DNA of 64,000 bases from Sediminibacterium soli (GTDB lineage: Bacteria; Bacteroidota; Bacteroidia; Chitinophagales; Chitinophagaceae): assembly GCF_009939225.1 (NCBI RefSeq), contig NZ_JAACJR010000008.1, forward strand, positions 1,417,377-1,481,376. Reading direction: 5' to 3'. The position numbers and the translations under genes are program-made. Shown in pieces: positions 44,467 to 60,885 of this stretch. Every line of letters begins with the position of its first letter. Positions within the stretch are counted from its first letter, which is position 1. The notes below the pieces were generated by a model. The model was given only the letters and a program-made list of their open reading frames with translations. It had not been told where the DNA came from and ran no database searches.

Positions 44467-45303
44467 TTATTTTTTACCCTCGAAAAATCCCTGTTCTTTC
44501 AGTACGGACCGGAGAATGCCGAGGCGTATGGGTATCATATCCGCAGAATGCGGGCCTTCGACATTGAGCACAAAGAAATACGGATGTTTGTTTTCCTCTA
44601 TCCAGCCAACCACCCAGCCAAGGGCGTTGCCGTTCTCGCGGAAACCCCACCCGGTTTTGTAGCTGAGCTGGTAATTGGCGTTGTTTTCCTGCAGCATCAC
44701 TTTTTTAACAATATCCTGTGTACGTTTCTGGAAAGGGAGCTGACCGAAATACAGTCTTTTTGCCAGACCCATTTCCTCGTCGGGGGTCAGTTTCAGGGTG
44801 TTGTCGAGCCAGAAAGAATCGATACGCGCGCCAATTGTATGGTTACCGTATTTCAGGCTGTCCAGCCAGCGCTGCATGGTATCGCGGCCAATGCGCCTGG
44901 CCACTTCCTGGTAATAGGGAACGGCCGAGGCTTTGAAAGCTTCTTCCATCGTAAGATCCTTATTCCAGGATACGGCCGTGTCTCCATTGGGGAAACGGCG
45001 GACAACACCATCCCATCTGATCTGCATTTTCTCATCGGCGATACGGCCGGTTTCTATACCGATCAGGGAGTTCACGATCTTGAATGTGGATGCGGGCAGG
45101 TAAGCCGAATCCCTGAAACGGGATAGGTTGTACATCAGGAATTCGCCTGTGCCGTTGTTATACAATCCGAAGGTTCCCGTTACATGGTGCGCATCAAAAT
45201 ATTTCTTCAGCGAATCATCCGTCTTCACATTATTCGGCGAACAGGAAATAATGACAAGGCACACACTTATGATAACGGCTGCTACTGATACATTTTTTTT
45301 CAT
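44467..45303 (-). CDS. Class D (OXA-type) beta-lactamase lipoprotein
   Basis: The 278-residue protein has a lipoprotein signal with lipobox VIISC (Cys 21). Class D motifs are complete: nucleophile S72-T-F-K75 in PASTFKIVNS, SAV at 126-128, YGN at 152-154, Trp 165 in FWLDN, and KTG at 216-218 in YKTGWGF. It should acylate and hydrolyse beta-lactams in the periplasm. It follows kbl by 32 bp, so they may share a transcript. No mobile element adjoins it, which suggests an intrinsic chromosomal enzyme. Confidence 0.93.
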   Translation of the reverse strand: MKKNVSVAAVIISVCLVIISCSPNNVKTDDSLKKYFDAHHVTGTFGLYNNGTGEFLMYNLSRFRDSAYLPASTFKIVNSLIGIETGRIADEKMQIRWDGVVRRFPNGDTAVSWNKDLTMEEAFKASAVPYYQEVARRIGRDTMQRWLDSLKYGNHTIGARIDSFWLDNTLKLTPDEEMGLAKRLYFGQLPFQKRTQDIVKKVMLQENNANYQLSYKTGWGFRENGNALGWVVGWIEENKHPYFFVLNVEGPHSADMIPIRLGILRSVLKEQGFFEGKK

Positions 45304-45335
45304 TCCTGTCCGGATTATTGGTTCTTGGTTACTGA

Positions 45336-46529
45336 TTATGCATTCTTCAATACGCCCAGTTCCTTACCTGTTTTGGTAAAGGCGGCAATAGCTTTGTCCA
45401 GGTGTTCCTGTTCATGCGCTGCGCTCAGTTGCACGCGTATCCGGGCAAGCCCCTTGGGCACTACGGGGAAGAAGAAACCGATTACATATACGCCTTCGTC
45501 AAGCAGTTTTGCGGCAAAATTCTGTGCCACCACGGCATCGTAGAGCATAATGGGAACGATGGGATGATCGCCGGGTTTGATATCAAAACCCGCTTCGGTC
45601 ATTTTGCTGCGGAAATAACTGGTATTGTACTCGAGTTTATCGCGCAGCTGGGTGGTCTCCGTCAGCATATCCAGCACCGCTATGGAAGCGCCCACGATAC
45701 TGGGGGCCACCGTGTTGGAGAAAAGATAAGGGCGGCTTCGCTGCCGCAGTATTTCAATGATCTCCCTGCGCCCCGAGGTAAAGCCCCCGCTTGCGCCACC
45801 AAGGGCTTTGCCCAGGGTGCCTGTGATAATATCGATCCTGCCCATTACATTACGGTATTCGTGGGTACCGCGACCTGTTTTTCCTAGGAACCCGGAAGAA
45901 TGGCATTCATCGATCATCACGATCGCGTCGTATTTATCGGCCAGATCGCAGATCTTATCGAGCTGCGCTATCGTTCCGTCCATGCTGAACGAGCCATCGG
46001 TAACGATGATGCGGCTTCTGCAGCCTGCCGCTTCTTTCAGTTTGACCTCCAGGTCGCCCATATTGTTGTGTTCGTAGCGAAAGCGCTGCGCCTTGCACAA
46101 ACGCACCCCGTCGATGATGGAGGCGTGGTTGAGTGCGTCGGAAATGATGGCATCTTCTTCGCCAAACAAGGGTTCAAACACACCGCCGTTTGCATCAAAC
46201 GCAGCGGCGTAGAGGATCGTGTCCTCTGTTCCGAGAAACTGCGCGATCTTTTGCTCGAGTTCTTTGTGAATATCCTGCGTACCGCAGATAAAACGCACAC
46301 TGCTCATACCGTATCCATGCGTATCGATTGCCTTATGCGCGGCTTCGATGACCCTGGGATGAGAGGAAAGCCCGAGATAATTGTTCGCACAGAAATTCAG
46401 CACCTGTTTTCCGTTTACGGTGATTTCCGGTCCCTGTTCGCTGGTAATGATCCGCTCTTTCTTGAACAGTCCGGCTTTTTCTATTTCGGCCAGCTCTTCG
46501 CGAATGCGGGTAACAAATTTCTCATTCAT
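45336..46529 (-). CDS. kbl: Glycine C-acetyltransferase (2-amino-3-ketobutyrate CoA ligase)
   Basis: The 397-residue PLP enzyme of the alpha-oxoamine synthase family has NFCANNYLGLSSHPRV, SSVRFICGTQDIHKELE and the PLP lysine in GTLGKALGGASGG, all characteristic of Kbl. It cleaves 2-amino-3-ketobutyrate with CoA to glycine and acetyl-CoA in threonine breakdown. No threonine dehydrogenase gene is in the window. It has its own -7 box at 46550 and lies between the two-component regulator and the beta-lactamase gene. Confidence 0.95.
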   Translation of the reverse strand: MNEKFVTRIREELAEIEKAGLFKKERIITSEQGPEITVNGKQVLNFCANNYLGLSSHPRVIEAAHKAIDTHGYGMSSVRFICGTQDIHKELEQKIAQFLGTEDTILYAAAFDANGGVFEPLFGEEDAIISDALNHASIIDGVRLCKAQRFRYEHNNMGDLEVKLKEAAGCRSRIIVTDGSFSMDGTIAQLDKICDLADKYDAIVMIDECHSSGFLGKTGRGTHEYRNVMGRIDIITGTLGKALGGASGGFTSGRREIIEILRQRSRPYLFSNTVAPSIVGASIAVLDMLTETTQLRDKLEYNTSYFRSKMTEAGFDIKPGDHPIVPIMLYDAVVAQNFAAKLLDEGVYVIGFFFPVVPKGLARIRVQLSAAHEQEHLDKAIAAFTKTGKELGVLKNA

Positions 46530-46606: not shown

Positions 46607-47293
46607 CTATGCCGTTACAAAACGGTAGCCTACGCCTTTGATGGTGATGATTTCGAGAGAGCCATCGTCTTTGAGGTAGCCGCGTATCTTGGTAATATAC
46701 ACATCCAGGTTACGGCTGTTGAAGAAGGAATCGTTGCCCCAGATATGATTGAGGAGGTCGCGGCGGTCGATAACGCTGTCGCGATTCTGGAAAAGGTATT
46801 TGAGCAGTTCACTCTCGCGGTAAGAAAGTTTTTTTTCTTCCCTGCCCGACGATAATACCTGTTTATTCAGGTGAAACTGGTATTTGCCAAGGGTTATCGT
46901 ATCGCCTGTTAAAGCAACCGGTATTTCTTTTTTCACGCGCACTGCGTTCTCGATACGAACGATCAGTTCTTCCATGCTGAACGGCTTGCGTATGTAATCG
47001 TTGCCCCCGATACGGAAGCCATGCACCACATCGTCTGTCTGTGTTTTTGCCGTCAGGAAGATCAGGGGCACATCGTTGTTGAGCCGGCGTATCTCTTCCG
47101 CAATTTCAAAGCCGCTTTTGTTGGGCAGCATTACATCGAGCACACATATATCGGGTTGTTCGTCCTCGAAAGTGCGCACCACATCCGCGCCGTCGCTCTC
47201 CATGACCACTTCAAAACCCCGGGTTTCCAGGGTTTCTTTAACGATCTTTCCGAGAAACAATTCGTCCTCTACGTACAGCACTTTGATGCTCAT
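46607..47293 (-). CDS. OmpR/PhoB-type response regulator
   Basis: The 228-residue protein has a receiver domain (about 3-118; YVEDE acidic pocket, phospho-acceptor Asp in CVLDVMLPNKSG, RKPFSMEE lysine) and a C-terminal winged-helix DNA-binding domain (about 130-226; LSYRESELLKYLFQN and GVGYRF). It resembles the RprY type of Bacteroidota, although that name is not certain. OmpR-type regulators bind direct repeats spaced about 10-11 bp, as found at 49097 and 60849. It overlaps its kinase gene by 4 bp. Confidence 0.95.
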   Translation of the reverse strand: MSIKVLYVEDELFLGKIVKETLETRGFEVVMESDGADVVRTFEDEQPDICVLDVMLPNKSGFEIAEEIRRLNNDVPLIFLTAKTQTDDVVHGFRIGGNDYIRKPFSMEELIVRIENAVRVKKEIPVALTGDTITLGKYQFHLNKQVLSSGREEKKLSYRESELLKYLFQNRDSVIDRRDLLNHIWGNDSFFNSRNLDVYITKIRGYLKDDGSLEIITIKGVGYRFVTA

Positions 47294-49047
47294 GCAATTG
47301 GAAATTTCACTGTGAATGTGCTTCCTTTCCCCTCTTCGCCCGTTACCGAAATGGACCCTCCGTGTTTCTCCACCACATGGGCCACATAGCTCAGGCCCAG
47401 GCCGTAGCCCCTGGTATTATGGTGGTTGCCCGCGGGTACCCGGAAGAATTTATCAAACACCTTATCCCGGAAAGCGGCGGGTATGCCCATGCCCTTATCC
47501 GAAACCGATAATACAACCGTGTCGGTATCGCGCTTCAGTACCAGTTTGATCTCGGGGTTTCCGGGACTGTACTTTATGGCGTTGTCCAGCAGGTTATAGA
47601 TCACACTGGTGATGTGCAGCCTGTCGGCATTGATGGTGAAATAGCTGCCCTGTATTTCCATATCCAGTTTTGCCTGGTGTTTCTCGAACTGGAGACGCAT
47701 GGTATTGCGCACTTCCCTTACCAGCTCCTCCAGGTCAAAATGCTCCTTCTTCATTTCCAGTTCGCGGTTTTCGAAGAGCGAAAGTTTCAGCACTTTATCT
47801 ACCAGCAAACCCAGTCTCTGCAGTTCAGCAGCTGAAATATCAAGGTATTCTTTTGTGCGTTCCGGATTGTGTATACCGCCGAAATTGCGCAATGCCTCCA
47901 CAGCCACGCTCACCGTGGCGATCGGTGTTTTCAGTTCATGCGTGATATTGCTGATGAAATCGTCTTTCATTTCCGCAAGCCTTCGCTGCTGCGCCAGGTT
48001 GCGGTAGAGAAAAATAAAAGCAACGGATGTAAAGGCCACCAAAAAAACCGAAAACAGTATCTGCGGCGATACTTTTCGGGCAAGAAAAGAAGCCGGGTTT
48101 TCGAATTCTGCCTGGTACCATAAGGGTTTCATAAACCCGACCGATGCGGGCCTGGTACCAAATTGCCCCGCGGCCAGCGTGTCTTTGCGGTGCAGGGAAT
48201 CATCTTTTCCCATATGAATGGTAAAGGAAAGCCGGATATTGTTTTTGCCGAGTTCTTTCCGGTATACAGAATCCACTTTGGCAACAGGAATGCTGTCGTC
48301 CAGTATTTTTCCATTTGTCAGGAACCGCACGAAGGCTTCGCCGGGCTGTTTCAGGTTTACGCGCAGGTCTCCGTTTATAAACCTTCTGTTGCCGCTGTCT
48401 TTACGCTGCGTCACCCATACGCGGCGGTCAACGGGAACAGGCGGTTTCAGGATCAGATTTTTGCCTGCACCCATCTTTTGCATAAAGACGTTGCGGAGCG
48501 AATCGGCGCTGGCACCTCCCCGCACGATGATGTTCACACCCATACGGGAAGACAGCTTGCGCATAACAGCAGAATCATCCATAGCAGATTTGCCATCGGG
48601 CATGATCTGTTTACGCAACGCCAGCTCCAGTTCTTTGGGTAATACACGGTTAACGGACATGCCTGCCCCACGGGGAAACAAGGTATCTGTTTTATCGTTC
48701 ATAACAACCGCTATGCCACCTGCACTGTCTGGCTGCCTTGTACCTGCAGACTGGTTACGCATCTCTCCCGCCACTTCTTTCCTGAAATCGTTCATAAAAC
48801 TGTGCACGAAAATATTCGGGCCTACGGTGGTGCGATAGTAGGGTGTATCTGCCCTGAATTTTTCGGCCTGCAGGTTAAACACCACATCGCGGAAAATATT
48901 GTTGGCTTCTTTTTTCAGTCCTTCCCTTTCTTCTTTATACAAACGGCTTACCCAATACGACTGGAATGCGACAATCAGCAGTATGGCTGCGATCATCAGC
49001 ACGCGGGCCGTCTGTAGTTTGTTTTGAAGGAATGTTGTTTTCTTCAT
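47290..49047 (-). CDS. Membrane sensor histidine kinase, RprX-like
   Basis: The 585-residue kinase has a membrane helix (about 14-36), a periplasmic sensor of about 290 residues, a second helix near 330-350, a HisKA domain (phospho-acceptor in THELKTPIATVS) and HATPase motifs (YNLLDNAIKYS, DKGMGIP, GYGLGLSYV). No HAMP domain is obvious. It should sense an envelope signal and phosphorylate the regulator encoded 4 bp inside its end. ATG 49047 is preferred to the five-codon longer frame. Its promoter faces the repeats shared with the GLPGLI gene, so autoregulation is likely. Confidence 0.94.
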   Translation of the reverse strand: MKKTTFLQNKLQTARVLMIAAILLIVAFQSYWVSRLYKEEREGLKKEANNIFRDVVFNLQAEKFRADTPYYRTTVGPNIFVHSFMNDFRKEVAGEMRNQSAGTRQPDSAGGIAVVMNDKTDTLFPRGAGMSVNRVLPKELELALRKQIMPDGKSAMDDSAVMRKLSSRMGVNIIVRGGASADSLRNVFMQKMGAGKNLILKPPVPVDRRVWVTQRKDSGNRRFINGDLRVNLKQPGEAFVRFLTNGKILDDSIPVAKVDSVYRKELGKNNIRLSFTIHMGKDDSLHRKDTLAAGQFGTRPASVGFMKPLWYQAEFENPASFLARKVSPQILFSVFLVAFTSVAFIFLYRNLAQQRRLAEMKDDFISNITHELKTPIATVSVAVEALRNFGGIHNPERTKEYLDISAAELQRLGLLVDKVLKLSLFENRELEMKKEHFDLEELVREVRNTMRLQFEKHQAKLDMEIQGSYFTINADRLHITSVIYNLLDNAIKYSPGNPEIKLVLKRDTDTVVLSVSDKGMGIPAAFRDKVFDKFFRVPAGNHHNTRGYGLGLSYVAHVVEKHGGSISVTGEEGKGSTFTVKFPIA

Positions 49048-49059
49048 GAATCGATGAGT

Positions 49060-49067
49060 CAAATATA
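49060..49067 (-). promoter_or_regulatory. -7 box TATATTTG of the kinase-regulator operon
   Basis: TATATTTG on the minus strand matches TAnnTTTG and lies 12 bp before ATG 49047. The TTAACC repeats begin about 30 bp upstream of it. A CCCCGC/GCGGGG hairpin (49068-49082) lies between. Confidence 0.5.
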
Positions 49068-49096: not shown

Positions 49097-49133
49097 TTAA
49101 CCTAAATTAACCTTTGTGCAAGAATGCTTAACA
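49097..49133 (+). promoter_or_regulatory. Triple TTAAC(C/A) direct repeat upstream of GLPGLI gene
   Basis: TTAACC at 49097, TTAACC at 49107 and TTAACA at 49128 are direct repeats with starts 10 and 21 bp apart, all on the same face of the helix. They precede the -7 box at 49144. The same three repeats with the same spacings precede the TonB-type gene at 60849-60885. Spacing fits tandem binding of an OmpR-family regulator, encoded by the divergent operon. Confidence 0.7.
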
Positions 49134-49143
49134 CAGGGCTGGA

Positions 49144-49151
49144 TAGTTTTG
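49144..49151 (+). promoter_or_regulatory. -7 box TAGTTTTG of the GLPGLI gene
   Basis: TAGTTTTG matches TAnnTTTG and starts 27 bp before ATG 49171. The third TTAAC repeat ends 10 bp upstream, overlapping the -33 region, which is typical of activator sites. Confidence 0.55.
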
Positions 49152-49170
49152 GCTCATCAAACCGACACAA

Positions 49171-49995
49171 ATGAAACGAGTATTTATTATGGTGCTTGCC
49201 CTGCTTGGCGGTTCCGGGTTATATGCACAGATCAAGGAAGGGACCATCGTCTACGAACGCCGGATCAACATGCACCGTACGATACAGAATGAACAGATGA
49301 GGGCTATGATACCTGAGTTCCGCACCAGCAAACACATGCTGTTGTTCAGCGACAGTGTATCCGTCTACAAACTGGTTCCTGAAGACGAGGCGCCGGATCC
49401 CTTTGCAGGTGGGGGCGGCGGTGTCAGGATGATCATGCGCGGCGCGGCCGATGGCGGCGATCTGTACAAGAATTTCTCGCAGGCAAAATCGGTGCAGACT
49501 TCCGAACTGGCGGGCAAAAACTACCTGATCGTTGATTCTATACGTCAGCAGCCCTGGAAATTGTATCCGGAAACCAAACAGGTATTGGGTCATACCTGTC
49601 GTAAAGCGGTCAGAAAAATGCCGGCGCCGGTTGCCGCTATGCGCACCATCAGCATGGTCAACGGTGTACAGCGCGACTCCGGCAGCGCGCCCGCTGTACC
49701 GGCCGCACGCGAAGTGGAGGTTATTGCCTGGTATGCCGATAATATTATAACACCCGCAGGCCCCGAAGGTTATGGCCAATTACCGGGTGCTATTTTGCAG
49801 CTTGATTTTGACAACGGACAAAATGTAATTACCGCTGTTGAGATCAGGGAAAAAGTTGATCAGAAAGAATTAAAAGAACCCCGGAAAGGAAAAATTGTTA
49901 CACAGGCAGCCTACCGGCAATTGATGCAGGATCTGATGAATACACAAATGCAGTCAATGCCCGGTGGTGGAATGAGAATGAGGTTTGGGAATTAG
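49171..49995 (+). CDS. GLPGLI family protein
   Basis: The 274-residue protein has a signal peptide (about 1-19, ending LYAQ). Family features are the opening KEGTIVYERRINM, LLFSDSVSVYKLV, WKLYPETKQVLGHTCRKA, and the namesake loop AWYADNI...GPEGYGQLPGAILQL, where GLPGLI reads QLPGAIL. GLPGLI proteins are envelope proteins of unknown function usually encoded beside TonB-type outer-membrane barrels. Here the likely partner is 8.8 kb away (57993-60800) and shares its promoter architecture. The C-terminus is Met-rich. Confidence 0.9.
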   Translation: MKRVFIMVLALLGGSGLYAQIKEGTIVYERRINMHRTIQNEQMRAMIPEFRTSKHMLLFSDSVSVYKLVPEDEAPDPFAGGGGGVRMIMRGAADGGDLYKNFSQAKSVQTSELAGKNYLIVDSIRQQPWKLYPETKQVLGHTCRKAVRKMPAPVAAMRTISMVNGVQRDSGSAPAVPAAREVEVIAWYADNIITPAGPEGYGQLPGAILQLDFDNGQNVITAVEIREKVDQKELKEPRKGKIVTQAAYRQLMQDLMNTQMQSMPGGGMRMRFGN

Positions 49996-50495
49996 TTGAA
50001 ACGTAATTCAATACTATCTGCCCGGTAGGAGCAGAACGCGATACCCAGCGAAAAAATACCGGCAATATTACCCGGTATCGCATCAATGCGCCGGGTGGGT
50101 CTTCTATAGACAACTACGAACAGGTTTATTTACCCCTACATCAGGAAATATGCGGTGGCCACACTTTCACCTGCATTAACGTCTATTTATTGCACAGATT
50201 CCTCCCATTTCCTCGGCCTGTTCCGGAAAAGCAGATATATATCAACAAATTATTATTAAAGCATTTATTTTTTAAAATTTTGTTATAAATTCTGTTAATT
50301 TAGGTGAATATTGATTTGAAATAGGTGTATACAAATTCCTGATCGGTTAATAAATGCTTACCCAACCCAATCAATTATGAAATCGGCTGCTTATATGTCG
50401 GAGAATTCATCATTGTGGAACATACCCTACGCGCGTCCCTATTTATATCCTCATACAGCCATACAGGCTTTCTTTTAACCAAAAATCAATCTTTC
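49996..50495. other. 500-bp leader region before susC
   Basis: ATACCGG and CCGGTAT (near 50057-50079) form a weak 7-bp hairpin behind the GLPGLI gene. The region 50230-50340 is AT-rich and holds TAATTTAG (50296-50303), a near -7 box. If used, the susC leader would be about 185 nt long, with room for post-transcriptional control. The only coding signal seen is the 33-codon ORF at 50377-50478. Confidence 0.45.
50377..50478 (+). CDS. Possible 33-residue leader ORF before susC
   Basis: ATG 50377 opens a 33-codon frame ending at TAA 50476-50478, 17 bp before the susC start. Seven of 33 residues are aromatic (Tyr, Trp, Phe) and three are Pro. There is no known family. It may be a chance ORF, or a translated leader that influences susC expression. 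Confidence 0.25.
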   Translation: MKSAAYMSENSSLWNIPYARPYLYPHTAIQAFF

Positions 50496-53400
50496 ATGAA
50501 AAAACGACTGCTTGCTGCCAAACTTTTCATGTTTTTGGCATTGCTGATTACCTGCCGAACGGCATTGGCTCAGAACCGGCAGGTTTCGGGGATGGTAACT
50601 GATGCAAAGGGGCAGGGAATCCAGGGGGTTTCTGTTTCCGTGGTAGGCACCAGCATCAATTCTGTTTCCGATGCCGATGGAAAATTCACCATTACAGTAA
50701 GAAAACCGGCCGATCAGATTTTGATCTCGTACGTAGGGTTTATCTCGAAACGGATCACTGTTGGAACGCAAACCAACATATCGGCGGTATTACTGGAAGA
50801 TGAAAGTCCGGCAACGGAAGTAGTAGTGACCGGTTATTCCGCACAACGAAAAAGAGATATCACCGGCGCTGTAACGGTAGTGAATGCCAAAACCCTTACC
50901 TCATTACCGGCGGCATCCGTAACACAAATGCTCCAGGGGCGCGCAGCCGGTGTAAGTGTAGGTAACGACAATTCACCGGGAGGAGGCACCATGGTGCGTA
51001 TTCGGGGATTTGGCACCATTAACAATAACAGCCCCCTGTATATTATTGACGGGGTGCCTACGCAAGGTACACTGAACCAGATCAATCCCAACGATATTGA
51101 AAGCATGCAGATACTCAAGGACGCGTCTGCCGCTTCCATTTACGGAGCGAGAGCTGCTAACGGGGTAGTGATTATCACAACTAAAAAAGGAAAGGTAGGT
51201 GAATCGAATATCACATTCGATTATTATACCGGCTCGCAAAGACCCGGCAAAATGCTGAACCTGTTAAACACGAGTGAACTGGGCCAGTACCTGTACCTGG
51301 CAGATATTGGCGCAGGAAAAAATCCTTCAGTCACTTCACCCTCGGCTCAATACCGCTTTGGACCAAACGGTGAACAAACCATTGCCGATTATATTTACCC
51401 GAATGTTTTCGGAGCACTTCCTTCAAATTATACCTATACCAATGATATCGCAGATCCGGCATTGGGTAAAACTGCCTTTAATATTACTAAGGCAAACAAG
51501 GAAGGTACAGACTGGCAGCGTACTATTTTCAAGCCCGCCAGTATCTCCAATTACCAGATCGGCGCCACTGGCGGTTCAAAAACAGGCAGATATGCCATAT
51601 CAGGCAATTATTTCAGGCAGAATGGTATTCTCCAGTACACAAAGTATAACCGCTATTCTGTGAGGGCGAACACTGAATTTACCAAGGGCAGGTTCACCTT
51701 CGGCGAGAACCTCACTTTTTCTTATGATGAAAGGCAGGGCATTGCCAACAATGACGAAAGCAACCCCATTATGTTTGCCATCCGGGTGCATCCGATCATT
51801 CCGGTGTTCGATATCACCGGTGGCCCACCCGCTCTTGGGGGTACCAATACATCTCCTTATAATGGGTTTGCCGGCAGCAGGGGCGTAAATCTGGGAAATG
51901 CACCGAATCCGCTGGCCAGGCTATACCGCGAAAAAGATAATATCACAAAGGGGTTGCATCTTTTTGGTAATGCTTTCCTGGAATTGCAGATAACCAAGAA
52001 CCTCAAAGCGAGGACCAGTTTCGGTGCAGAGATCAATCAATACAACAGGTCTGAATATTTCCATCGTGATATTGAAGCAGCGGAACCAAGGAATTCCAAC
52101 AGTTTAAATGTCAGGAATGACTATGACCGGTCACTGACCTGGTTCAATACGTTGAATTACAATCGGACGTTTGGCAATCATGCGGTTAACGTACTGGTTG
52201 GAACGGAAGCTGTTACCACCTATTCGGTCGGAACAGTTGCCAGCCGCAGTGGTTTTTCCTTTGATGACCTCGATTATCGTTACCTCGATGCAGGATCGGC
52301 CTCTGGTTTAAGCAACAGCGGCGGAGGTGCTACAAAAACCGCCCTATTCTCACAATTCGGCAAGATCAATTATGGTTATAAGAATATTTACCTCGCCGAT
52401 TTCACCCTGCGCCGCGACGGATCTTCCCGTTTTTCCAAATCGAACCGCTATGGTGTTTTCCCGGCCTTCTCCGTAGGTGTACGTATGACGGAACTGGCTT
52501 TTATGAGGAAAGCAACTTTTCTTGATGAATTCAAGATACGGGGAGGCTGGGGTAAAACAGGCAACCAGCTAATCCCCAACGTGTATAATGCATACACCCT
52601 TTATCAGTCTGATCCTTCCAACAATGCTTACGATATTAACGGCACGGGTTCTTCCATCGTAGGCGGGTTCGACAACAGCCAGTTTGGAAATCCGAATGGC
52701 AAATGGGAGACCACCACTTCCACCAATATCGGGTTCGATTTGGTTACCATGAAAAATAAACTGGAAGTGGTATTTGACTGGTACAACCGTATTACATCGG
52801 ATATGCTGACGCAGGTAGCGATTCCCAGAACAATGGGTACCGCCACTATTCCTTATACCAATATTGGTGAAATGCGGAACAGGGGATTTGATCTGGGTAT
52901 CAATTACAGGAACAACAGCGGCAATTTCCGTTACCAGATAGGGCTGAACATTGGCCATTACAAAAATGAAGTGCTGAAATTGAACAACGATCCCAATGCA
53001 ACGATCTTCGGATTTTCGACCCGTCTTCCCCCAATCTCTGCAACCCGAAGAGGATTACCGATCGCCAGCTTTTACGGATATATCGTGGATGGTGTTTTCA
53101 AAGACGCATCTGAAGCTGCCAAGGGAGCCAAATTCGGAACCTATACACGGGAAGGCACATTCAATTTCCGTGATGTGAACGGCGATGGTGTTATTACCGC
53201 TGCCGACAGAACGATCATCGGCAACCCGCATCCTGATTTCACGTACGGATTAAATATCAATATGGGATACAAAAGCTGGGATCTTACGCTTTTTGCCCAG
53301 GGCTCGCAGGGCAACCAGATATTTGATTACGTCAGGTACTGGACAGATTTTAATACGTTTCAGGGAAACCGTTCAAAAGACATCCTGTATAATTCATGGA

Positions 53401-53744
53401 AACAACCCGGAGATGTTGCCAAATTGCCACGTCTGAATTCCGGAGATGCCACCAGCCAGCAGGTATCTTCTTATTTCATTGAGGATGGCTCGTATATGCG
53501 CATAAAAAATATACAGCTTACTTATACCATTCCGGCGAATATCTTAAAGAAGGTACACCTGGGATCTGCCCAGATATATTTGCAGGGGCAGAACCTGTTT
53601 ACTATTACAAAATACAGCGGCCTCGATCCTGATATCAACCTGAGAACATCCGGCAATAACAACCAGGATATTCACATGGGTATTGATGAAGGAGCGTATC
53701 CGGTGGCAAAATCATACCTGCTGGGTGTACGTCTCGGTCTTTAA
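50496..53744 (+). CDS. SusC/RagA family TonB-linked outer-membrane transporter
   Basis: The 1082-residue protein has a signal peptide (about 1-25), a carboxypeptidase-regulatory-like domain (about 28-110; VSGMVTDAKGQGIQGVSVSV), a plug with VTGYSAQRKRDITGAV, IRGFGTINNNSPLYIIDGVP and IYGARAANGVVIITTKKG, and a long beta-barrel ending LGVRLGL. It imports a ligand, often a glycan or peptide, with its SusD lid and TonB energy. ATG 50496 starts the signal peptide. susD follows 26 bp downstream. No glycoside hydrolase or peptidase gene adjoins, so the substrate cannot be inferred. Confidence 0.96.
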   Translation: MKKRLLAAKLFMFLALLITCRTALAQNRQVSGMVTDAKGQGIQGVSVSVVGTSINSVSDADGKFTITVRKPADQILISYVGFISKRITVGTQTNISAVLLEDESPATEVVVTGYSAQRKRDITGAVTVVNAKTLTSLPAASVTQMLQGRAAGVSVGNDNSPGGGTMVRIRGFGTINNNSPLYIIDGVPTQGTLNQINPNDIESMQILKDASAASIYGARAANGVVIITTKKGKVGESNITFDYYTGSQRPGKMLNLLNTSELGQYLYLADIGAGKNPSVTSPSAQYRFGPNGEQTIADYIYPNVFGALPSNYTYTNDIADPALGKTAFNITKANKEGTDWQRTIFKPASISNYQIGATGGSKTGRYAISGNYFRQNGILQYTKYNRYSVRANTEFTKGRFTFGENLTFSYDERQGIANNDESNPIMFAIRVHPIIPVFDITGGPPALGGTNTSPYNGFAGSRGVNLGNAPNPLARLYREKDNITKGLHLFGNAFLELQITKNLKARTSFGAEINQYNRSEYFHRDIEAAEPRNSNSLNVRNDYDRSLTWFNTLNYNRTFGNHAVNVLVGTEAVTTYSVGTVASRSGFSFDDLDYRYLDAGSASGLSNSGGGATKTALFSQFGKINYGYKNIYLADFTLRRDGSSRFSKSNRYGVFPAFSVGVRMTELAFMRKATFLDEFKIRGGWGKTGNQLIPNVYNAYTLYQSDPSNNAYDINGTGSSIVGGFDNSQFGNPNGKWETTTSTNIGFDLVTMKNKLEVVFDWYNRITSDMLTQVAIPRTMGTATIPYTNIGEMRNRGFDLGINYRNNSGNFRYQIGLNIGHYKNEVLKLNNDPNATIFGFSTRLPPISATRRGLPIASFYGYIVDGVFKDASEAAKGAKFGTYTREGTFNFRDVNGDGVITAADRTIIGNPHPDFTYGLNINMGYKSWDLTLFAQGSQGNQIFDYVRYWTDFNTFQGNRSKDILYNSWKQPGDVAKLPRLNSGDATSQQVSSYFIEDGSYMRIKNIQLTYTIPANILKKVHLGSAQIYLQGQNLFTITKYSGLDPDINLRTSGNNNQDIHMGIDEGAYPVAKSYLLGVRLGL

Positions 53745-53770
53745 ATTATACAGATATAAATTCTATCTAA

Positions 53771-55546
53771 ATGAAAAAGATATTCCTACTACTATTGGCA
53801 GCTGGGTCTCTGGCGGGGCTCCATTCCTGCTCAAAAAGCTTTTTCGATGTGCAGCCGCAAGGGCGTGCTTCTATCGAACAGTTGAGTAACAAAAACGGTG
53901 TATCCGCTTTGTTGATCGGCGCCTATTCTCTTCTGGACGGTGTTGGCGCAGGTAATACCGGTCGGCAGTCTACCATCTCCAATTATGTTTTCGGGGGCAT
54001 CGCCAGCGATGATGCCGTAAAGGGAACTGATGCCGGCGACCAACCGGAGCAGTCTTTTATAGAGCAATACAACTGGCTTGCCGATAACTCTTATTTTCTT
54101 GGAAAATTCCAGCATTCCTATGATGGTGTGGCGCGTTGTAACGAAGTGATCCAGATCGTTAACAGCGCTGCAGTTGTTGATATGACTGCCGCCGAAAAAA
54201 CGCAGGTAATTGCCGAAGCACGCTTCCTGAGAGGTCATTATCATTTTGAAGCAAAAAAAATGTGGAACATGGTTCCTTTCATAGATGAAAAAACCTATGA
54301 CCGGAACGATCCGAATTCAACCAAGATTCCCAACACCGCGGATATCTGGAAGGATATTGAAGCCGATTTCGATTTTGCTGCCAAAAACCTTCCAGCCACC
54401 CAGGCTCAAAAAGGAAGGGCAACGCAATGGGCTGCTAAAGCCTATCTGGCAAAAGCCTATGTGTTCCAGAAAAAATGGGCAGCAGCCAAACCGTTGCTGG
54501 AAGATATCCTGACCAATTCAGGCAAGAAACTGGTTGCCAACTACCATGATAACTATCGTTCCGCCACAAACAACAATGTAGAATCCATATTTGAGGTTGA
54601 ATTTTCGGTAAACGACGGCACCACGGGCAATAACGGCAATGCTGGCGATAACCTTAACTGGCCTTATTCTTCTACCGCTCCCGGCAGAGGATGCTGCGGC
54701 TTCTATCAGCCCTCGCAGAACCTCGTCAATGCTTTTAAAACAGATGCTTCAGGGTTGCCGCTGATAGGCGCAGCATCTGACGGATCGCTGGACACTTACA
54801 ACAAAGTAGACCTGCCGAACGACCAGGGTATCGCAGCGAATGCTGCGTTCACATTGGACAAAACGATTCCTGTTGATCCGCGCCTCGACTGGACAGTAGG
54901 CCGCAGGGGTGTAAGTTTTCTTGACTGGGGGCCTATGCCAGGCGCCAGCTGGATCCGCGACCAGGCATATGCGGGGCCGTATACAGGGAAAAAATGGATG
55001 TACTACCTCGCTGAGGAAAACAGCTCCACCCACGCCACCTCCAAACGCAGTGTGAACAATAATTACCGGTTATTCAAAGTGTCGCATATCATTCTGTGGC
55101 TCGCCGAATGTGAAATGGAACTGGGCAATCTCACTGTTGCCGAAAATTACGTCAACCTGATCCGTAACCGCGCCAAAAACGGATCTGTGCAGGATGCCAC
55201 GGTTACCTACAAAGTAGAACCCTATCCGGCAGGAACATTTCTTGCCAAAGGAACTGAGTTCGCCAGGAATGCGGTACACATGGAAACCAGGCTGGAATTC
55301 GCCATGGAAGGGCATCGCTTCTTCGATCTCGTTCGCTGGGGCGTTGCAGAAAAAGTATTGAATAAATATGCGCAGGAAGAATCCGTCCCGGGTACAGAGC
55401 CTTCCGGCAGAACGTTTAATAAACGAACCTATATGGCAGGCAAAGTATTTGCTGCAAAAAACAATTACTATCCGCTTCCACAGGACGAAATCCTGAATTC
55501 ACAAAAGAACGGCAAACCTACTTTGGTGCAGAACCCGGGTTATTGA
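53771..55546 (+). CDS. RagB/SusD family surface lipoprotein
   Basis: The 591-residue protein has a lipoprotein signal with lipobox GLHSC, followed by SKSFFDVQPQGRAS, the usual SusD start. TPR-like helices surround the binding face (FLRGHYHFEAKKMW, AAKAYLAKAYVFQKKW), and the C-terminal block has LAECEMELGNL, FAMEGHRFFDLVRWG and YPLPQDEIL. It is the extracellular lid of the SusC channel encoded 26 bp upstream. Two hairpins close the transcript. Confidence 0.96.
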   Translation: MKKIFLLLLAAGSLAGLHSCSKSFFDVQPQGRASIEQLSNKNGVSALLIGAYSLLDGVGAGNTGRQSTISNYVFGGIASDDAVKGTDAGDQPEQSFIEQYNWLADNSYFLGKFQHSYDGVARCNEVIQIVNSAAVVDMTAAEKTQVIAEARFLRGHYHFEAKKMWNMVPFIDEKTYDRNDPNSTKIPNTADIWKDIEADFDFAAKNLPATQAQKGRATQWAAKAYLAKAYVFQKKWAAAKPLLEDILTNSGKKLVANYHDNYRSATNNNVESIFEVEFSVNDGTTGNNGNAGDNLNWPYSSTAPGRGCCGFYQPSQNLVNAFKTDASGLPLIGAASDGSLDTYNKVDLPNDQGIAANAAFTLDKTIPVDPRLDWTVGRRGVSFLDWGPMPGASWIRDQAYAGPYTGKKWMYYLAEENSSTHATSKRSVNNNYRLFKVSHIILWLAECEMELGNLTVAENYVNLIRNRAKNGSVQDATVTYKVEPYPAGTFLAKGTEFARNAVHMETRLEFAMEGHRFFDLVRWGVAEKVLNKYAQEESVPGTEPSGRTFNKRTYMAGKVFAAKNNYYPLPQDEILNSQKNGKPTLVQNPGY

Positions 55547-55559
55547 CCGGTTACTGTTT

Positions 55560-55586
55560 AAAGACCGGTAAAACTATCCGGTCTTT
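55560..55586 (+). terminator. First hairpin after susD
   Basis: AAAGACCGG (55560-55568) and CCGGTCTTT (55578-55586) form a perfect 9-bp stem with a 9-nt loop. It lacks a long T-run and may act with the stronger terminator at 55635. Confidence 0.6.
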
Positions 55587-55634
55587 GGCTGTTCTGCAGG
55601 TTTAGCTTTTTGGATAGAGAAGCGCTGGTACTTT

Positions 55635-55666
55635 AAAGGGTGCATCTTTGGATGCACCCTTTTTTT
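55635..55666 (+). terminator. Intrinsic terminator after susD
   Basis: AAAGGGTGCATC (55635-55646), loop TTTG and GATGCACCCTTT form a perfect 12-bp stem continuing into a T-run to 55666. Confidence 0.88.
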
Positions 55667-55729
55667 AGGAATGAATGATGACGATAGAAAAACGAAAACA
55701 GCCTTTACGTACTTTCACCGAACATTACT

Positions 55730-56215
55730 ATGGGAAAAACACTAATTACAGGACTATTGCTGCTGGCGGTTTGCCTGCAGGTGCCTGCTCAGCCGGCGGT
55801 AAATAAAACCGAACTGCCCCACTTTACACTCCAGTTAACGAGTGGACATTTCGTCAGCTATAAAGATCTTCCACGAAAAAAAGACCTCATTCTTATTTAT
55901 TTTGCCCCTAATTGCGACCATTGCCGCGAATTCATAAAAAGGTTAGTGGATAAAATAGACAATTTCAAACATGCACAGATAGTACTGATCTCCTATTTCC
56001 CCCTCGCCGATCTTCGAAAATTCGGTACGGAATTCGGACTTGACAGATTATCGAATGTGATGATCGGCACGGAAGGGAATTCTTTTCTGGTTCCGGCATT
56101 TTTTAAAATCGTAAACTTCCCTTTTACGGCTGTATATAATAAATCCGGGCGGTTGATACGCGTATTCCGCGAAGCACCGCCCTTGAATTTACTGGCAGAT
56201 CTCTTAAAGAAATAA
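55730..56215 (+). CDS. Exported thioredoxin-fold protein
   Basis: The 161-residue protein has a signal peptide (about 1-21, ending VPAQ) and a TlpA/AhpC-like fold with the redox motif NCDHC in FAPNCDHCREFIKRL, and FKIVNFPFTAVYNKSG carrying the cis-proline region. It is a periplasmic thiol-disulfide protein. It follows the SusCD operon behind a terminator, so it is independently expressed. Confidence 0.85.
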   Translation: MGKTLITGLLLLAVCLQVPAQPAVNKTELPHFTLQLTSGHFVSYKDLPRKKDLILIYFAPNCDHCREFIKRLVDKIDNFKHAQIVLISYFPLADLRKFGTEFGLDRLSNVMIGTEGNSFLVPAFFKIVNFPFTAVYNKSGRLIRVFREAPPLNLLADLLKK

Positions 56216-56246
56216 TAAGCTCTTATTCAATCCAGCCGTTTTAACC

Positions 56247-57683
56247 CTACACCTTATAATACTGCTCCCATCCCTTTCGCGGAGGAAGGCCATGCAGCAT
56301 TTCGTTGGCGGTTTTGTTGTTGGTGATGGTTTTTGTTTTGCGGTCGAACAAAAGCTTGGTGTTAAGATGCTGCGCCAGTACACCTAAACAGAACACCTGG
56401 CTCAACGGACCTGCAACAGCAAAAGGCGATCTTGTTTTCTCTTCACCCATACAGGCTTTCAGGAAGTTGGCATAGTGGTTAGACGGGCTCTTAGGCACTT
56501 CGGGAAGCCTGGATGCCATTTCTTTGGCTTTTTCTTCGGGGATGATCGATAATGTGGAACCATGCGAACCGCCTTTGAAAGTGAGTTCCTTGCTGTAAAT
56601 GATCTTGCCCGGATTCAGTTTGGCAGACTGAAGGGTTCCGCTGCTGGGCGGCGGTATATTGGGATCAAGTCCCAGTACGCCATATCCTGCCGGGATCGGA
56701 GGAAGGTTGTTTACACCGTCGTACCAGGTGATATCGCAGGCCGGCATATGGTTGCGCTCGGGGAAGCGGAACAATATGGTAGATGAATGCGGGAAGAAGA
56801 AATCGTTATGACCTTCCGCCTTCAGCATATTGATCTCATAGGGCAATCCCAGCTCGAGGAATTCATGCGCCGTATCAATCAGGTGCGCGCCCCAGTCGCC
56901 CAAAGCACCCATTCCGAAATCGTACCAGCAACGCCACTGCCCGTTGATGTAATCATGGTTATAATCATGTACAGGCTGCACAACGCCATGCCATGTATCC
57001 CAGTCGAGTGTTGCCGGGATGGCTTCTTTGGCAGGAAGGCTCTTGATATTCGCATTCCATCCATGCCAGCGGCGTGCGTTGTTCATATGTGCGCTGATAG
57101 CCGTCACGTCTTTGATAATACCTGCTTCCTTCCATGCTTTGAACTGGAAGTAGTTCGCATCCGAATGACCCTGGTTGCCCATTTGGGTAGACAGCTTGGG
57201 GTATTTTTTTGCGGCCGCCATCATCAGTTCCACTTCATGGAATGTGCGAGCCATGGGCTTTTCAACATATACATGCTTGCCCAGTGCCAGCGCCATCATG
57301 GTAATGGCAAAATGAGAATGATCGGGCACGCCTATCGCAACAGCATCGATCTGGTTGCCCATTTTATCGAACATGGTGCGGAAATCCTGGAAACGAGGCA
57401 CATCAGGGAATTTTTTCAATACGGCCTCGGTCTGCGGAGCGCCCATATCCGTATCGCAAAACGCCACGAATTCGGCAAGACCGGTCTTATCGAACGACAT
57501 TACGTCCGAACCACCCTGGTTACCGATGCCGATACAGGCGAGTTTTACTTTTTGCCCTGCAAAGGGATTGATCAATGCAGGTGCGCCATAGGCTTTGGTA
57601 ATCATGGATGGCACCGCTGATGCCGCGGATAACATAGCCGCATTTCTCAAAAATTTGCGGCGTGATTTCTGATCAGGTTTCAT
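56247..57683 (-). CDS. Gfo/Idh/MocA family oxidoreductase with Tat signal
   Basis: The 478-residue protein opens with a twin-arginine signal (SRRKFLRNAAM followed by a hydrophobic stretch, about 6-33), so it is exported folded. The Rossmann motif is GIGNQG in LACIGIGNQGG, and the family motif YVEKPMAR follows near 140. The C-terminal domain is of the Gfo/Idh/MocA type used for periplasmic sugar derivatives in Bacteroidota. It would use a bound NAD(P). The start at ATG 57683 avoids a TTG two codons upstream and follows a TAGCTTTA box. Confidence 0.92.
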   Translation of the reverse strand: MKPDQKSRRKFLRNAAMLSAASAVPSMITKAYGAPALINPFAGQKVKLACIGIGNQGGSDVMSFDKTGLAEFVAFCDTDMGAPQTEAVLKKFPDVPRFQDFRTMFDKMGNQIDAVAIGVPDHSHFAITMMALALGKHVYVEKPMARTFHEVELMMAAAKKYPKLSTQMGNQGHSDANYFQFKAWKEAGIIKDVTAISAHMNNARRWHGWNANIKSLPAKEAIPATLDWDTWHGVVQPVHDYNHDYINGQWRCWYDFGMGALGDWGAHLIDTAHEFLELGLPYEINMLKAEGHNDFFFPHSSTILFRFPERNHMPACDITWYDGVNNLPPIPAGYGVLGLDPNIPPPSSGTLQSAKLNPGKIIYSKELTFKGGSHGSTLSIIPEEKAKEMASRLPEVPKSPSNHYANFLKACMGEEKTRSPFAVAGPLSQVFCLGVLAQHLNTKLLFDRKTKTITNNKTANEMLHGLPPRKGWEQYYKV

Positions 57684-57992
57684 TAGCAATCGTATTTGGT
57701 ATGATAAAGCTAATGTAGCGGAAATATGATGTGAACAGGAGAAGATATCGGTAAAGACAAGAGGGAAATTACGAAAACGATGTCGGAGATGAGCAGCGTA
57801 TTTGCTCCGCAGATACGCTATTAGTCATCTTAGGTATCGTTGCAAAATCCGCTTTGCAGGTGGGCTGATGGCAGCATGAAAGGGACAAAGAATTGGCCAT
57901 TGAACAGAGGTGTTTTTGCCACAGATGACACAGATTAGCACGGTTGATTTCTACATTGGTTGAGATCGGCGTGATCTGCAGCAGAGATCCCG
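57684..57992. other. Intergenic region with hairpin and short repeat-like sequence
   Basis: No ORF is supportable. TAGCTTTA on the minus strand (57712-57705) is a TAnnTTTA -7 box for the oxidoreductase. AGCGTAT (57795-57801) and ATACGCT (57813-57819) form a 7-bp hairpin with an inner TGC/GCA pairing. CCACAGATGACACAGATTAG (57919-57938) contains ACAGAT twice and resembles short sequences that I recall between genes in several Bacteroidota genomes. Confidence 0.5.
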
Positions 57993-60800
57993 CTATCCGC
58001 CGAAGGTGCGTATCATCACCCTCGGCGCCTCTGCGTTTGCTTTATTGATACGGAAGCTGAAGCTAAGCATGAAATACCTGTTAAGCACATTGAAACGGCT
58101 GTCTTCGATATAGTTCTGGTTGCCGCTGCTGCTGATACCGATATTCTGGTTCAGCAGGTCAAATGCGCTGAATTTGATCTCTCCGCGGTTATTCTTCAGG
58201 AAACTTTTTGCCAATGAAGCGTTCCAGTAGGCCGCTTTCGTATTGAATCCTGCCGATCTGCCGGTGTTGATGGTATAATTGAAGGTATTGTTCAGCACGA
58301 TACCGGCGGGCAGGTAATTGGTCATATCCAGTCCGTATACCTGCTGCTGGTAATTGGTATTCAATACAGGCTGCAGTGTATATTTTATTTTGCTGAAATT
58401 TACCCTGGCAGTAGCCATGATATCCAGTTTGCCATCGAGCGAAAAGTTATAGCTCAGGTTAGGGCTGAAACTGAAATTGTTGATCTCATTCCTGTTGCCA
58501 TTAACGAAACTGATATTGTGCAGCAGGTTGGATCCGATACCCGCATCCACCCGAGATTTTAGTTTCCTGATCGGAAATCCCGCATTTATATTCGAGAAGA
58601 CCGTATAGTTGCCATTGACATTCACCGGCGAAGAAGACCGCGAACTGTTGGCATTGATCACATCCGAATTCACGATCGCATTATTGGTTTTGGTAAGCGC
58701 AACAAAAGCAAATACATTCCGCTGGGTATAGATATTCGTTGAGAAATAATTCAGACTTACCGAATGCTGGTAGCTGCGTTTCAGGTTGGGATTACCGGTA
58801 TAGGTGTTCAATGGATCGCTTACATCCGCCACAGGCTGCAACTGGTAAGTGCTGGGCTGGTTCGTGGTGGTTGTATAGTTCACACTCAGCGAGCGCGTCT
58901 GGTTCATCCGGTATTGGATATTGGCGTTAGGTAACCAATCTGTAAATGTCTGTGCGATCCTGTTACCATTGGTATTATTGGTGCTGTATAAACTGGCAGA
59001 TTGCAAAGCACTGCCGAATGTAAAGCTCATTTTTTTTCGGTTGGTGCGCAAACTGATGCTTCCGCCTGTATAGTTGTACCCGCTTTTGAAATCATTGCTG
59101 AGTTTTGCATTCGGTCTATCGTGTTTACCGGAACTGCCGTTGTAGTCGTAGGTATCCCGCTTGCTGTCACCCACGCTGGTATTGTAGAAAGCGCTGAACT
59201 CGAGCAGCGACCGTTTACCGAGGGGTTCCGTATAAATAATATTGCCGCCAAGACTGCGTGTAACCGCCTCACGGCTGTTGCGCTGGTTCTGTACAGAGTC
59301 CGGCAGGGGTATGCCTGCGTTGTAAAATGTGTTGCGTGTATACAACATACCGTTCTGCTTACTGTCGTTATAGGTAAGACTGAGATTGGATGAAATGGTT
59401 CTTCCCTTCCTGGCAAGCCGCTTACGGAACTGCGCATTACCGCCAAAATTGAACGCATCTGAATGCGAGCTGCTGCTGGTATTACCATCGCTCAGTTTCA
59501 ATTCTTTTGCATCGACGGACTGGTAATCGCTGACAGATTTTGAATCGGATTGCTGAAAAGTGATCTGTGGAACAAATTTCAGTGAAGTAAGGCTGTCGAA
59601 CCTATGGTCTAAGGTGACATTGAAACGTTGCTGGTCATTCTTTCTTGCAGAATTGCTGTTAGACTGATAGATAAAGTTATTGCCCGGCAACACATTTCTC
59701 CGGTTGGTGCTTCTGTCGGTGCGCAGGTCTACATCGCTCGCCATGGCACTCGCATTGAAATCGGTTTTTTTATTGTTCCAGAGATCGTTGAAATTAAGTC
59801 CGCCTGCGATCGTTGTGGCAACGCCCGGCTGCCCCGGTCCCTGTCCCGTAACCGGCAATCCCAGATCATCCTGTCCACCCGTTCTGATGGTAATCCCACC
59901 GCCGTTGCGCATGCCTCTTGCCAGTTCGCCCGTAAAGTTCATTACATCGCTTATCGAGAATCCCTGTTTGTTCGTGTTATTTGCCATCGCAATAAGCGAG
60001 GTTTGCTGATCGCCACGGAATTTATTAAGATTGGTCTGGCCATCATACCGCTCATTGGTACCGCCTCCAGCGGTGAGCCTCCCGAACAGGGCATTGTTCC
60101 GGTCCTTTTTCAGTTTCAGGTTGATTGCTTTTTCACTTTGGCCATCGTCTACCCCGGTAAATTCGGATCGGTCGCTTTTTTTATCAAATACCTGCACTTT
60201 GTCGACTGCATCGGCATCAAGGTTTTTGGTGGCCATACGCGCATCTCCGGTAAAGAATTCCCTCCCGTTCACCAGCACACGGTTAATACGCTGACCATTC
60301 ATGCGTACGGCGCCATCGTTGTCTACCGTAACACCGGGCAGCTTCTTCAACAGGTCCTCGACTACCGCGTTGGGCTGTGTTTTAAAATTCTCCGTGTTAA
60401 ATTCCACCGTATCGTTGTTGATCGTAACAGGTGCCCGCCTGGCGATAACGGTTACATCGCCCGAATGCACGATATCTGTCATGGTGATATTGCCCAGCGA
60501 GAGCTCCACTCCTTCTGTCAGTTCTATGGTCTTCCAGACAGGCACGTATCCCACATAAGATGCAGACAGCAGGTATTTACCTTCACTTATCGACGGTATT
60601 CTAAACCGGCCGGCAGAATCAGCGCGCGCAAAAGTGATCAGTGTGGAATCCTTTGCATTGACAACAGAAATAGTGGCGTATGACAGACCTCTCCGGGACA
60701 GGCTGTCGAAAACAACGCCTTTTACACTGGCGGGCGTTCTCTGTGCCTGTAGAAAAAAGGGTGCATTGATCAGTAAAAGCAGTGCAACGATCCGGTACAT
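57993..60800 (-). CDS. TonB-type outer-membrane beta-barrel protein with regulatory-like domain
   Basis: The 935-residue protein has a signal peptide (about 1-20), a carboxypeptidase-regulatory-like domain (about 22-110; VKGVVFDSLSRRGLSYATIS), a plug-like region (NAVVEDLLKKLPGVTVDNDG, VLVNGREFFTGD) and a long outer-membrane barrel of the OMP_b-brl type ending NRYFMLSFSFR. Its ligand is unknown. Proteins of this architecture typically neighbour GLPGLI genes. ATG 60800 is preferred to ATG 60818 because a putative -7 box lies at 60827-60820, just before the latter. The promoter carries the TTAACC triple repeat. Confidence 0.88.
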   Translation of the reverse strand: MYRIVALLLLINAPFFLQAQRTPASVKGVVFDSLSRRGLSYATISVVNAKDSTLITFARADSAGRFRIPSISEGKYLLSASYVGYVPVWKTIELTEGVELSLGNITMTDIVHSGDVTVIARRAPVTINNDTVEFNTENFKTQPNAVVEDLLKKLPGVTVDNDGAVRMNGQRINRVLVNGREFFTGDARMATKNLDADAVDKVQVFDKKSDRSEFTGVDDGQSEKAINLKLKKDRNNALFGRLTAGGGTNERYDGQTNLNKFRGDQQTSLIAMANNTNKQGFSISDVMNFTGELARGMRNGGGITIRTGGQDDLGLPVTGQGPGQPGVATTIAGGLNFNDLWNNKKTDFNASAMASDVDLRTDRSTNRRNVLPGNNFIYQSNSNSARKNDQQRFNVTLDHRFDSLTSLKFVPQITFQQSDSKSVSDYQSVDAKELKLSDGNTSSSSHSDAFNFGGNAQFRKRLARKGRTISSNLSLTYNDSKQNGMLYTRNTFYNAGIPLPDSVQNQRNSREAVTRSLGGNIIYTEPLGKRSLLEFSAFYNTSVGDSKRDTYDYNGSSGKHDRPNAKLSNDFKSGYNYTGGSISLRTNRKKMSFTFGSALQSASLYSTNNTNGNRIAQTFTDWLPNANIQYRMNQTRSLSVNYTTTTNQPSTYQLQPVADVSDPLNTYTGNPNLKRSYQHSVSLNYFSTNIYTQRNVFAFVALTKTNNAIVNSDVINANSSRSSSPVNVNGNYTVFSNINAGFPIRKLKSRVDAGIGSNLLHNISFVNGNRNEINNFSFSPNLSYNFSLDGKLDIMATARVNFSKIKYTLQPVLNTNYQQQVYGLDMTNYLPAGIVLNNTFNYTINTGRSAGFNTKAAYWNASLAKSFLKNNRGEIKFSAFDLLNQNIGISSSGNQNYIEDSRFNVLNRYFMLSFSFRINKANAEAPRVMIRTFGG

Positions 60801-60819
60801 GGTTTGGTTTTTAGGCAAT

Positions 60820-60827
60820 CGAAATTA
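60820..60827 (-). promoter_or_regulatory. -7 box TAATTTCG of the TonB-type gene
   Basis: TAATTTCG on the minus strand differs from TAnnTTTG at one position. It starts 27 bp before ATG 60800, the same distance as at the GLPGLI promoter. Confidence 0.45.
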
Positions 60828-60848
60828 TACCGGTGTCACGCCGAAAGC

Positions 60849-60885
60849 GGTTAATGAACTTTGGGGAAAGGTTAATAAAGGTTAA
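60849..60885 (-). promoter_or_regulatory. Triple TTAACC direct repeat upstream of TonB-type gene
   Basis: Read on the minus strand, TTAACC starts at 60885, 60875 and 60854, spaced 10 and 21 bp, as at 49097-49133. Between the second and third repeats both sites share CTTT and a CAA block at the same offsets. The repeats lie upstream of the -7 box at 60827. Confidence 0.7.

Follow-up and report, generated by a model that had tools for sequence, protein, structure and literature searches.

A conserved TTAAC repeat array points to a small, autoregulated envelope regulon of a two-component system in Sediminibacterium soli and its relatives

Two promoter regions of the Sediminibacterium soli genome (NCBI RefSeq assembly GCF_009939225.1, contig NZ_JAACJR010000008.1, positions 1,417,377 to 1,481,376; this stretch of 64,000 nucleotides is the window, and coordinates refer to it) carry the same array of TTAAC repeats. 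One array lies between a kinase–regulator operon and a divergent gene for a GLPGLI family periplasmic protein, and the other precedes a gene for an outer membrane barrel. The genes, arrays and −7 promoter boxes are as follows.

46607–47293, minus strand: OmpR/PhoB-type response regulator, 228 amino acids (PF00072 at 1e-25 and PF00486 at 2e-19; recognition helix NSRNLDVYI)
47290–49047, minus strand: sensor histidine kinase, 585 amino acids (PF00512 and PF02518)
49060–49067, minus strand: −7 box TATATTTG of the kinase/regulator operon, 29 bp from the edge of array 1
49097–49132, plus strand: putative regulatory array 1 in the divergent kinase/GLPGLI promoter region, TTAAC at 0, +10 and +31, weak half-site gCAAG at +21
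49144–49151, plus strand: −7 box TAGTTTTG of the GLPGLI gene, 47 bp from the array start and 27 bp before the ATG (49171)
49171–49995, plus strand: GLPGLI family periplasmic protein, 274 amino acids (TIGR01200 at 110 bits, cut-off 50; PF09697)
57993–60800, minus strand: TonB-dependent-receptor-like outer membrane barrel, 935 amino acids (CarboxypepD_reg, plug and OMP_b-brl_3: PF13620, PF07715 and PF14905)
60820–60827, minus strand: −7 box TAATTTCG of the barrel gene, 58 bp from the array start and 27 bp before the ATG (60800)
60850–60885, minus strand: putative regulatory array 2 upstream of the barrel gene, TTAAC at 0, +10 and +31, cCAAA at +21

The regulator joins a receiver to a winged-helix Trans_reg_C domain, as members of the OmpR/PhoB family do; the N-terminal extracytoplasmic region of the kinase has no Pfam domain. 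The barrel scores 126 bits against PF14905, for which the gathering cut-off is 27. Array 1 reads TTAACC-N4-TTAACC-N15-TTAAC and adjoins the promoters of the kinase operon and the GLPGLI gene, one on each strand; array 2 reads TTAACC-N4-TTAACC-N15-TTAACC, and the box that it accompanies, TAATTTCG, is one mismatch from the Bacteroidota promoter TANNTTTG. The original prediction placed three TTAAC repeats in both promoters, the first copy in the divergent region of the regulator/kinase operon, and a −7 box 27 bp before each ATG. All of this is borne out in the window (49144 to 49171; 60827 to 60800), and we add the weak fourth half-site at +21.

The exact triple has only two copies in the 3.88 Mb genome, arrays 1 and 2, both of them in promoters, whereas base composition would give 0.009 copies; a reversed-pattern control gave no exact copy in the genome. 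The genome scan proposed with the prediction thus found no scatter of the motif through coding DNA. A chance resemblance among AT-rich promoters might be argued from TTAAC itself, which is common in the window (102 copies, below shuffled-sequence counts), but the excess of exact triples and their retention in genera with diverged surroundings led us to reject a chance origin, to which we assign a negligible probability. The two-repeat core TTAAC-N5-TTAAC alone occurs eight times in the genome, so specificity would come from the third repeat together with the constant distance to the −7 box.

A pattern search of 299 genomes of the order (Chitinophagales) found the exact triple in 76. Relatives of the kinase (E ≤ 1e-70) occur in 91 of 398 genomes of the order, and at 45 of the 55 such kinase loci in the 299-genome set the triple stands directly upstream in divergent orientation. 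Among genomes with the kinase 47 of 53 have it, against 29 of the 246 that lack the kinase (Fisher p ~5e-28, a value that ignores relatedness and, because the genomes are related, is descriptive only). Among the triple-bearing genomes without a kinase match, G026, G059, G164, G241, G268 and G275 hold a diverged kinase, GLPGLI gene and barrel gene at the site. Second arrays sampled in relatives precede a barrel ortholog in every case (23/23), separate contigs included. In gene maps drawn for 40 fetched stretches we saw three arrangements: convergent GLPGLI and barrel genes with one array apiece, as in most relatives of the same genus and in many genera; the barrel gene moved elsewhere with its own array (L110, L117, L128, L130, L133 and L135); and a single array ahead of an operon that holds both genes (L136, L139, L140, L142, L144 and others). 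Cnuella and Flaviaesturariibacter also hold the locus. The conservation asked of orthologous promoters is therefore found across several families of the order, in genera whose surroundings have diverged.

Five genomes of the same genus (G150, G297, G017, G209 and G283) have no ortholog of the kinase or the regulator and keep a 42%-identical RprY-like paralog. The four of these in the pattern search (G150, G209, G283 and G297) have no array, and no TTAAC array was found upstream of the best barrels in the same-genus genomes without the regulator, barrels only 34–45% identical to that of the window. G010, G289 and L176 keep the two-component system without GLPGLI or barrel genes at the locus, and each has TTAACC repeats upstream of the kinase, as a full array in G010 and as the kinase-proximal pair alone in G289 and L176. 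These cases bear on the idea that promoters of GLPGLI or OMP_b-brl_3 genes carry the repeat in general, independently of the two-component system. The two families are often adjacent, as the original prediction had said: they are convergent in most same-genus relatives, and the window genome holds three further GLPGLI/barrel pairs. However, none of those three pairs has even the two-repeat core upstream, and the array remains upstream of the kinase where GLPGLI and barrel genes are gone. The array is therefore not generic to these genes; we rejected a generic element, which we judge very improbable.

Relaxed scans of the same genome yielded a sole candidate for an additional regulon member, a gene for a double-PDZ periplasmic protein (G000:C13:1392121; L255:4122-5186) with a TTAACC pair TTAACCTTTTTTAAC and a −7 box at +48. 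The pair is kept in its orthologs, where TTCGTA elements and a TACNAAANNTTTNGTA-like palindrome accompany it; this holds for G150 too, a genome without the two-component system. We did not count this gene, the pair of which may belong to another regulator. Separately, a PDZ gene of G120 has a nearly complete array, TTAACCTTGATTAACCATTGTGCAAGGTTCATTAAG (L291:1075-1110), with a −7 box at about +49, suggesting a lineage-specific addition to the regulon.

The placement of the array relative to the core promoter is strongly constrained. In 25 of the 28 barrel promoters the −7 box, scored as TANNTT[T/C]G, stands 58 bp from where the array begins (+58); in GLPGLI promoters it stands at +58/59 (25/40) or +47/48 (13/40). 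The latter position is that of the window genus and close genera, in which the GLPGLI array is 10–11 bp nearer its −7 box than the barrel array; the two GLPGLI positions thus differ by one helical turn (10–11 bp). In the kinase direction, 34 of 40 loci have a −7 box 27–30 bp from the outer edge of the array, as the suggested autoregulation would have it. Almost no −7 boxes stand at other offsets, and the array-to-box spacers are only 27–36% identical. The fixed distance is that from array to −7 box and not that from −7 box to ATG, so the 27-bp spacing emphasized in the original prediction is true of the window without being the conserved quantity. A second barrel copy in G013, in which only the last TTAAC is left, keeps it 27 bp before its −7 box. 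Columns +22 to +25 (CAAG) are moderately conserved on both sides, from which we infer a degenerate half-site at +21 and hence two 10-bp-spaced pairs set 11 bp apart. The four half-sites look like two tandem dimer sites, by analogy with OmpR/PhoB-type regulators.

In Escherichia coli, PhoB at the pho box and OmpR/KdpE-type regulators bind 10–11 bp direct repeats as head-to-tail dimers; such sites keep a constant distance to the core promoter, the upstream element of which they replace. The promoter here is the Bacteroidota one and the half-site is different; the mechanism may be similar. The array-to-box spacing is fixed, and no conserved −33 element was seen at any of the three promoters when relatives were aligned, a geometry in which PhoB-like activation is conceivable. 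Because the array sits where that element would be, just upstream of the −7 box, the regulator probably activates its targets. The same regulon could instead be repressed, with the regulator occupying the promoters until a signal releases or dephosphorylates it. The array does abut the core promoters, the last repeat at the window GLPGLI gene beginning just 16 bp before the −7 box, and for PhoP of Riemerella anatipestifer, another Bacteroidota regulator, deletion of phoP is reported to have increased some GLPGLI/barrel targets and decreased others (PMC9603813). Repression seems to us unlikely, however, given that no −33 element is recognizable at any of the three promoters and that spacing shifts by a whole helical turn, as expected of an activator that contacts RNA polymerase.

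The closest NCBIfam model to the regulator is RprY (NF051850), against which it scores 233 bits, below the cut-off of 370; a Parabacteroides distasonis protein scores 459 bits. Given this score and a clade separate from RprY in the tree (support 100/99), we rejected RprY orthology. A likeness to RprY (known from Porphyromonas and Bacteroides) lies in the many RprY-branch loci outside Bacteroides/Prevotella that have TTAAC-N5-TTAAC pairs upstream of the kinase. In many Bacteroidota (L186-L253) these read TTAAC[A/G/T]-N4-TTAAC, about 40–70 bp upstream of the kinase gene; no such pair was seen at any of the Prevotella, Bacteroides and Parabacteroides loci that we examined. The window regulator differs in having RNL rather than RSM in its recognition helix and TTAACC rather than TTAAC[A/G/T] sites. 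Of 46 regulators with an R(N/T)L-DVYI helix, 42 go with TTAACC sites, and of 27 in the RSM-helix branch, 26 go with TTAAC[A/G/T] sites, a correlation that fits direct recognition. We rejected independent covariation of helix and motif, as both types are the two sides of a single well-supported split. In a second RprY-like lineage, from Chitinophaga and relatives (L188, L342, L343 and L345), the kinase and a barrel gene are divergently oriented and TTAACA repeats stand at 0/+10/+30, a layout that parallels the present one with a different half-site.

Such relatives make it conceivable that another regulator, the RprY-like paralog or a global regulator, reads the array and that the linked two-component system is merely one of its targets: the pairs occur upstream of their own kinases across the phylum, the genome encodes a paralog 42% identical to the linked regulator, and the PDZ gene keeps its TTAACC pair in G150. 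Yet the genomes searched that keep the paralog without the linked system lack the array, the RSM-helix branch has sites with another base after TTAAC, and the paralog of the window genome has no TTAAC pair upstream. We regard a different reader as improbable.

With a probability of roughly 0.85, then, we favour the reading that the regulator controls its own operon, the GLPGLI gene and the barrel gene as one small, autoregulated regulon of three promoters, in line with the small envelope regulon originally proposed. Several points weigh against it. The samples were gathered partly by the exact pattern, which makes the invariance of the TTAAC letters true by construction, although the spacing, −7 box and co-occurrence results are independent of that bias. 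The helix–motif correlation, arising from one split in the tree, is one event and not independent proof. Two-repeat TTAAC sites occur outside the system, upstream of the RprY-like branch and of the PDZ gene of G150, so other regulators may read similar half-sites. Finally, promoter geometry is the only ground for preferring activation to repression.

We hypothesize that the neighbouring regulator recognizes the array and would bind it as two head-to-tail dimers on four half-sites of 5–6 bp (TTAACC, TTAACC, tCAAGg and TTAAC at 0, +10, +21 and +31). The dimers would share one DNA face immediately upstream of the −7 box, in place of the −33 element. The array in the divergent region would serve both the kinase–regulator operon and the GLPGLI gene, and the second array the barrel gene, so that an envelope signal sensed by the kinase would raise the production of a LolA/RseB-like GLPGLI protein, a TonB-receptor-like barrel and the sensor system itself. 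Such an envelope-sensing circuit is plausible. The predicted GLPGLI model (predicted local distance difference test score, 80) has a LolA/RseB/PNGF-II N-domain-like fold and matches the N-terminal domain of PNGase F-II (4r4x, 7zgn; E 5e-8 to 1e-6) and, weakly, RseB and LolA (E ~6e-4); it differs from these in standing alone, without a glycosidase domain, and template-modelling scores are only 0.3–0.5. The barrel model, of low precision, resembles TonB-dependent receptors and superposes poorly. A more speculative and rather doubtful extension is an envelope-homeostasis circuit in Chitinophagales and neighbours, in which the induced GLPGLI protein would bind a lipid or misassembled envelope component and either feed back on the kinase or supply the barrel, akin to the RseB/sigma-E and CpxP/Cpx feedback loops of E. 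coli.

PhoP of R. anatipestifer offers the closest published parallel that we found. DNA affinity purification sequencing (DAP-seq) gave TTTAACA as the most conserved motif letters, described there as ArcA-like, and the sites bound by PhoP lie ahead of its own operon as well as of genes for GLPGLI proteins and outer membrane beta-barrels (PMC9603813). Motif core and target types agree with those proposed for the window regulator, and the study independently supports the view that a Bacteroidota regulator of this broad type reads TTAAC. It differs in reporting hundreds of DAP-seq peaks, compared with three promoters here, and the text consulted describes neither a four-half-site array nor a fixed −7 spacing (PMC9603813). 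Literature on TTAACC repeats with response regulators, on GLPGLI with two-component systems and on Chitinophaga-type direct-repeat regulators yielded no description of the regulon; the kind of system is known and the regulon itself appears to be undescribed.

The 8-kb separation of the GLPGLI and barrel genes noted in the original prediction is explained by a block of about 7 kb (50493–57683) that sits between them and is missing between the convergent genes of same-genus relatives.

50493–53744, plus strand: SusC
53771–55546, plus strand: SusD
55730–56215, plus strand: AhpC/TSA-like protein
56247–57683, minus strand: Gfo/Idh/MocA oxidoreductase

Upstream of the SusC gene, a one-mismatch repeat TTCACCTAAATTAAC (50294–50308, minus strand) is possibly a decayed or chance copy. 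On the other side of the locus, the region 44467–46529 holds a class D beta-lactamase-like gene (NCBIfam, 244 bits, just under the cut-off of 250) and a 397-amino-acid gene (45336–46529), the orthologs of which remain beside the regulator within the genus.

Proteins of the GLPGLI and OMP_b-brl_3 families occur widely among Bacteroidota, for the most part without an assigned function; one ortholog pair of them is now tied to one kinase. The promoter signature is precise, searchable and order-wide, which makes the inducing signal and the role of the pair testable in relatives, and the comparison with RprY-like regulators predicts a difference in DNA recognition between two branches of this group.

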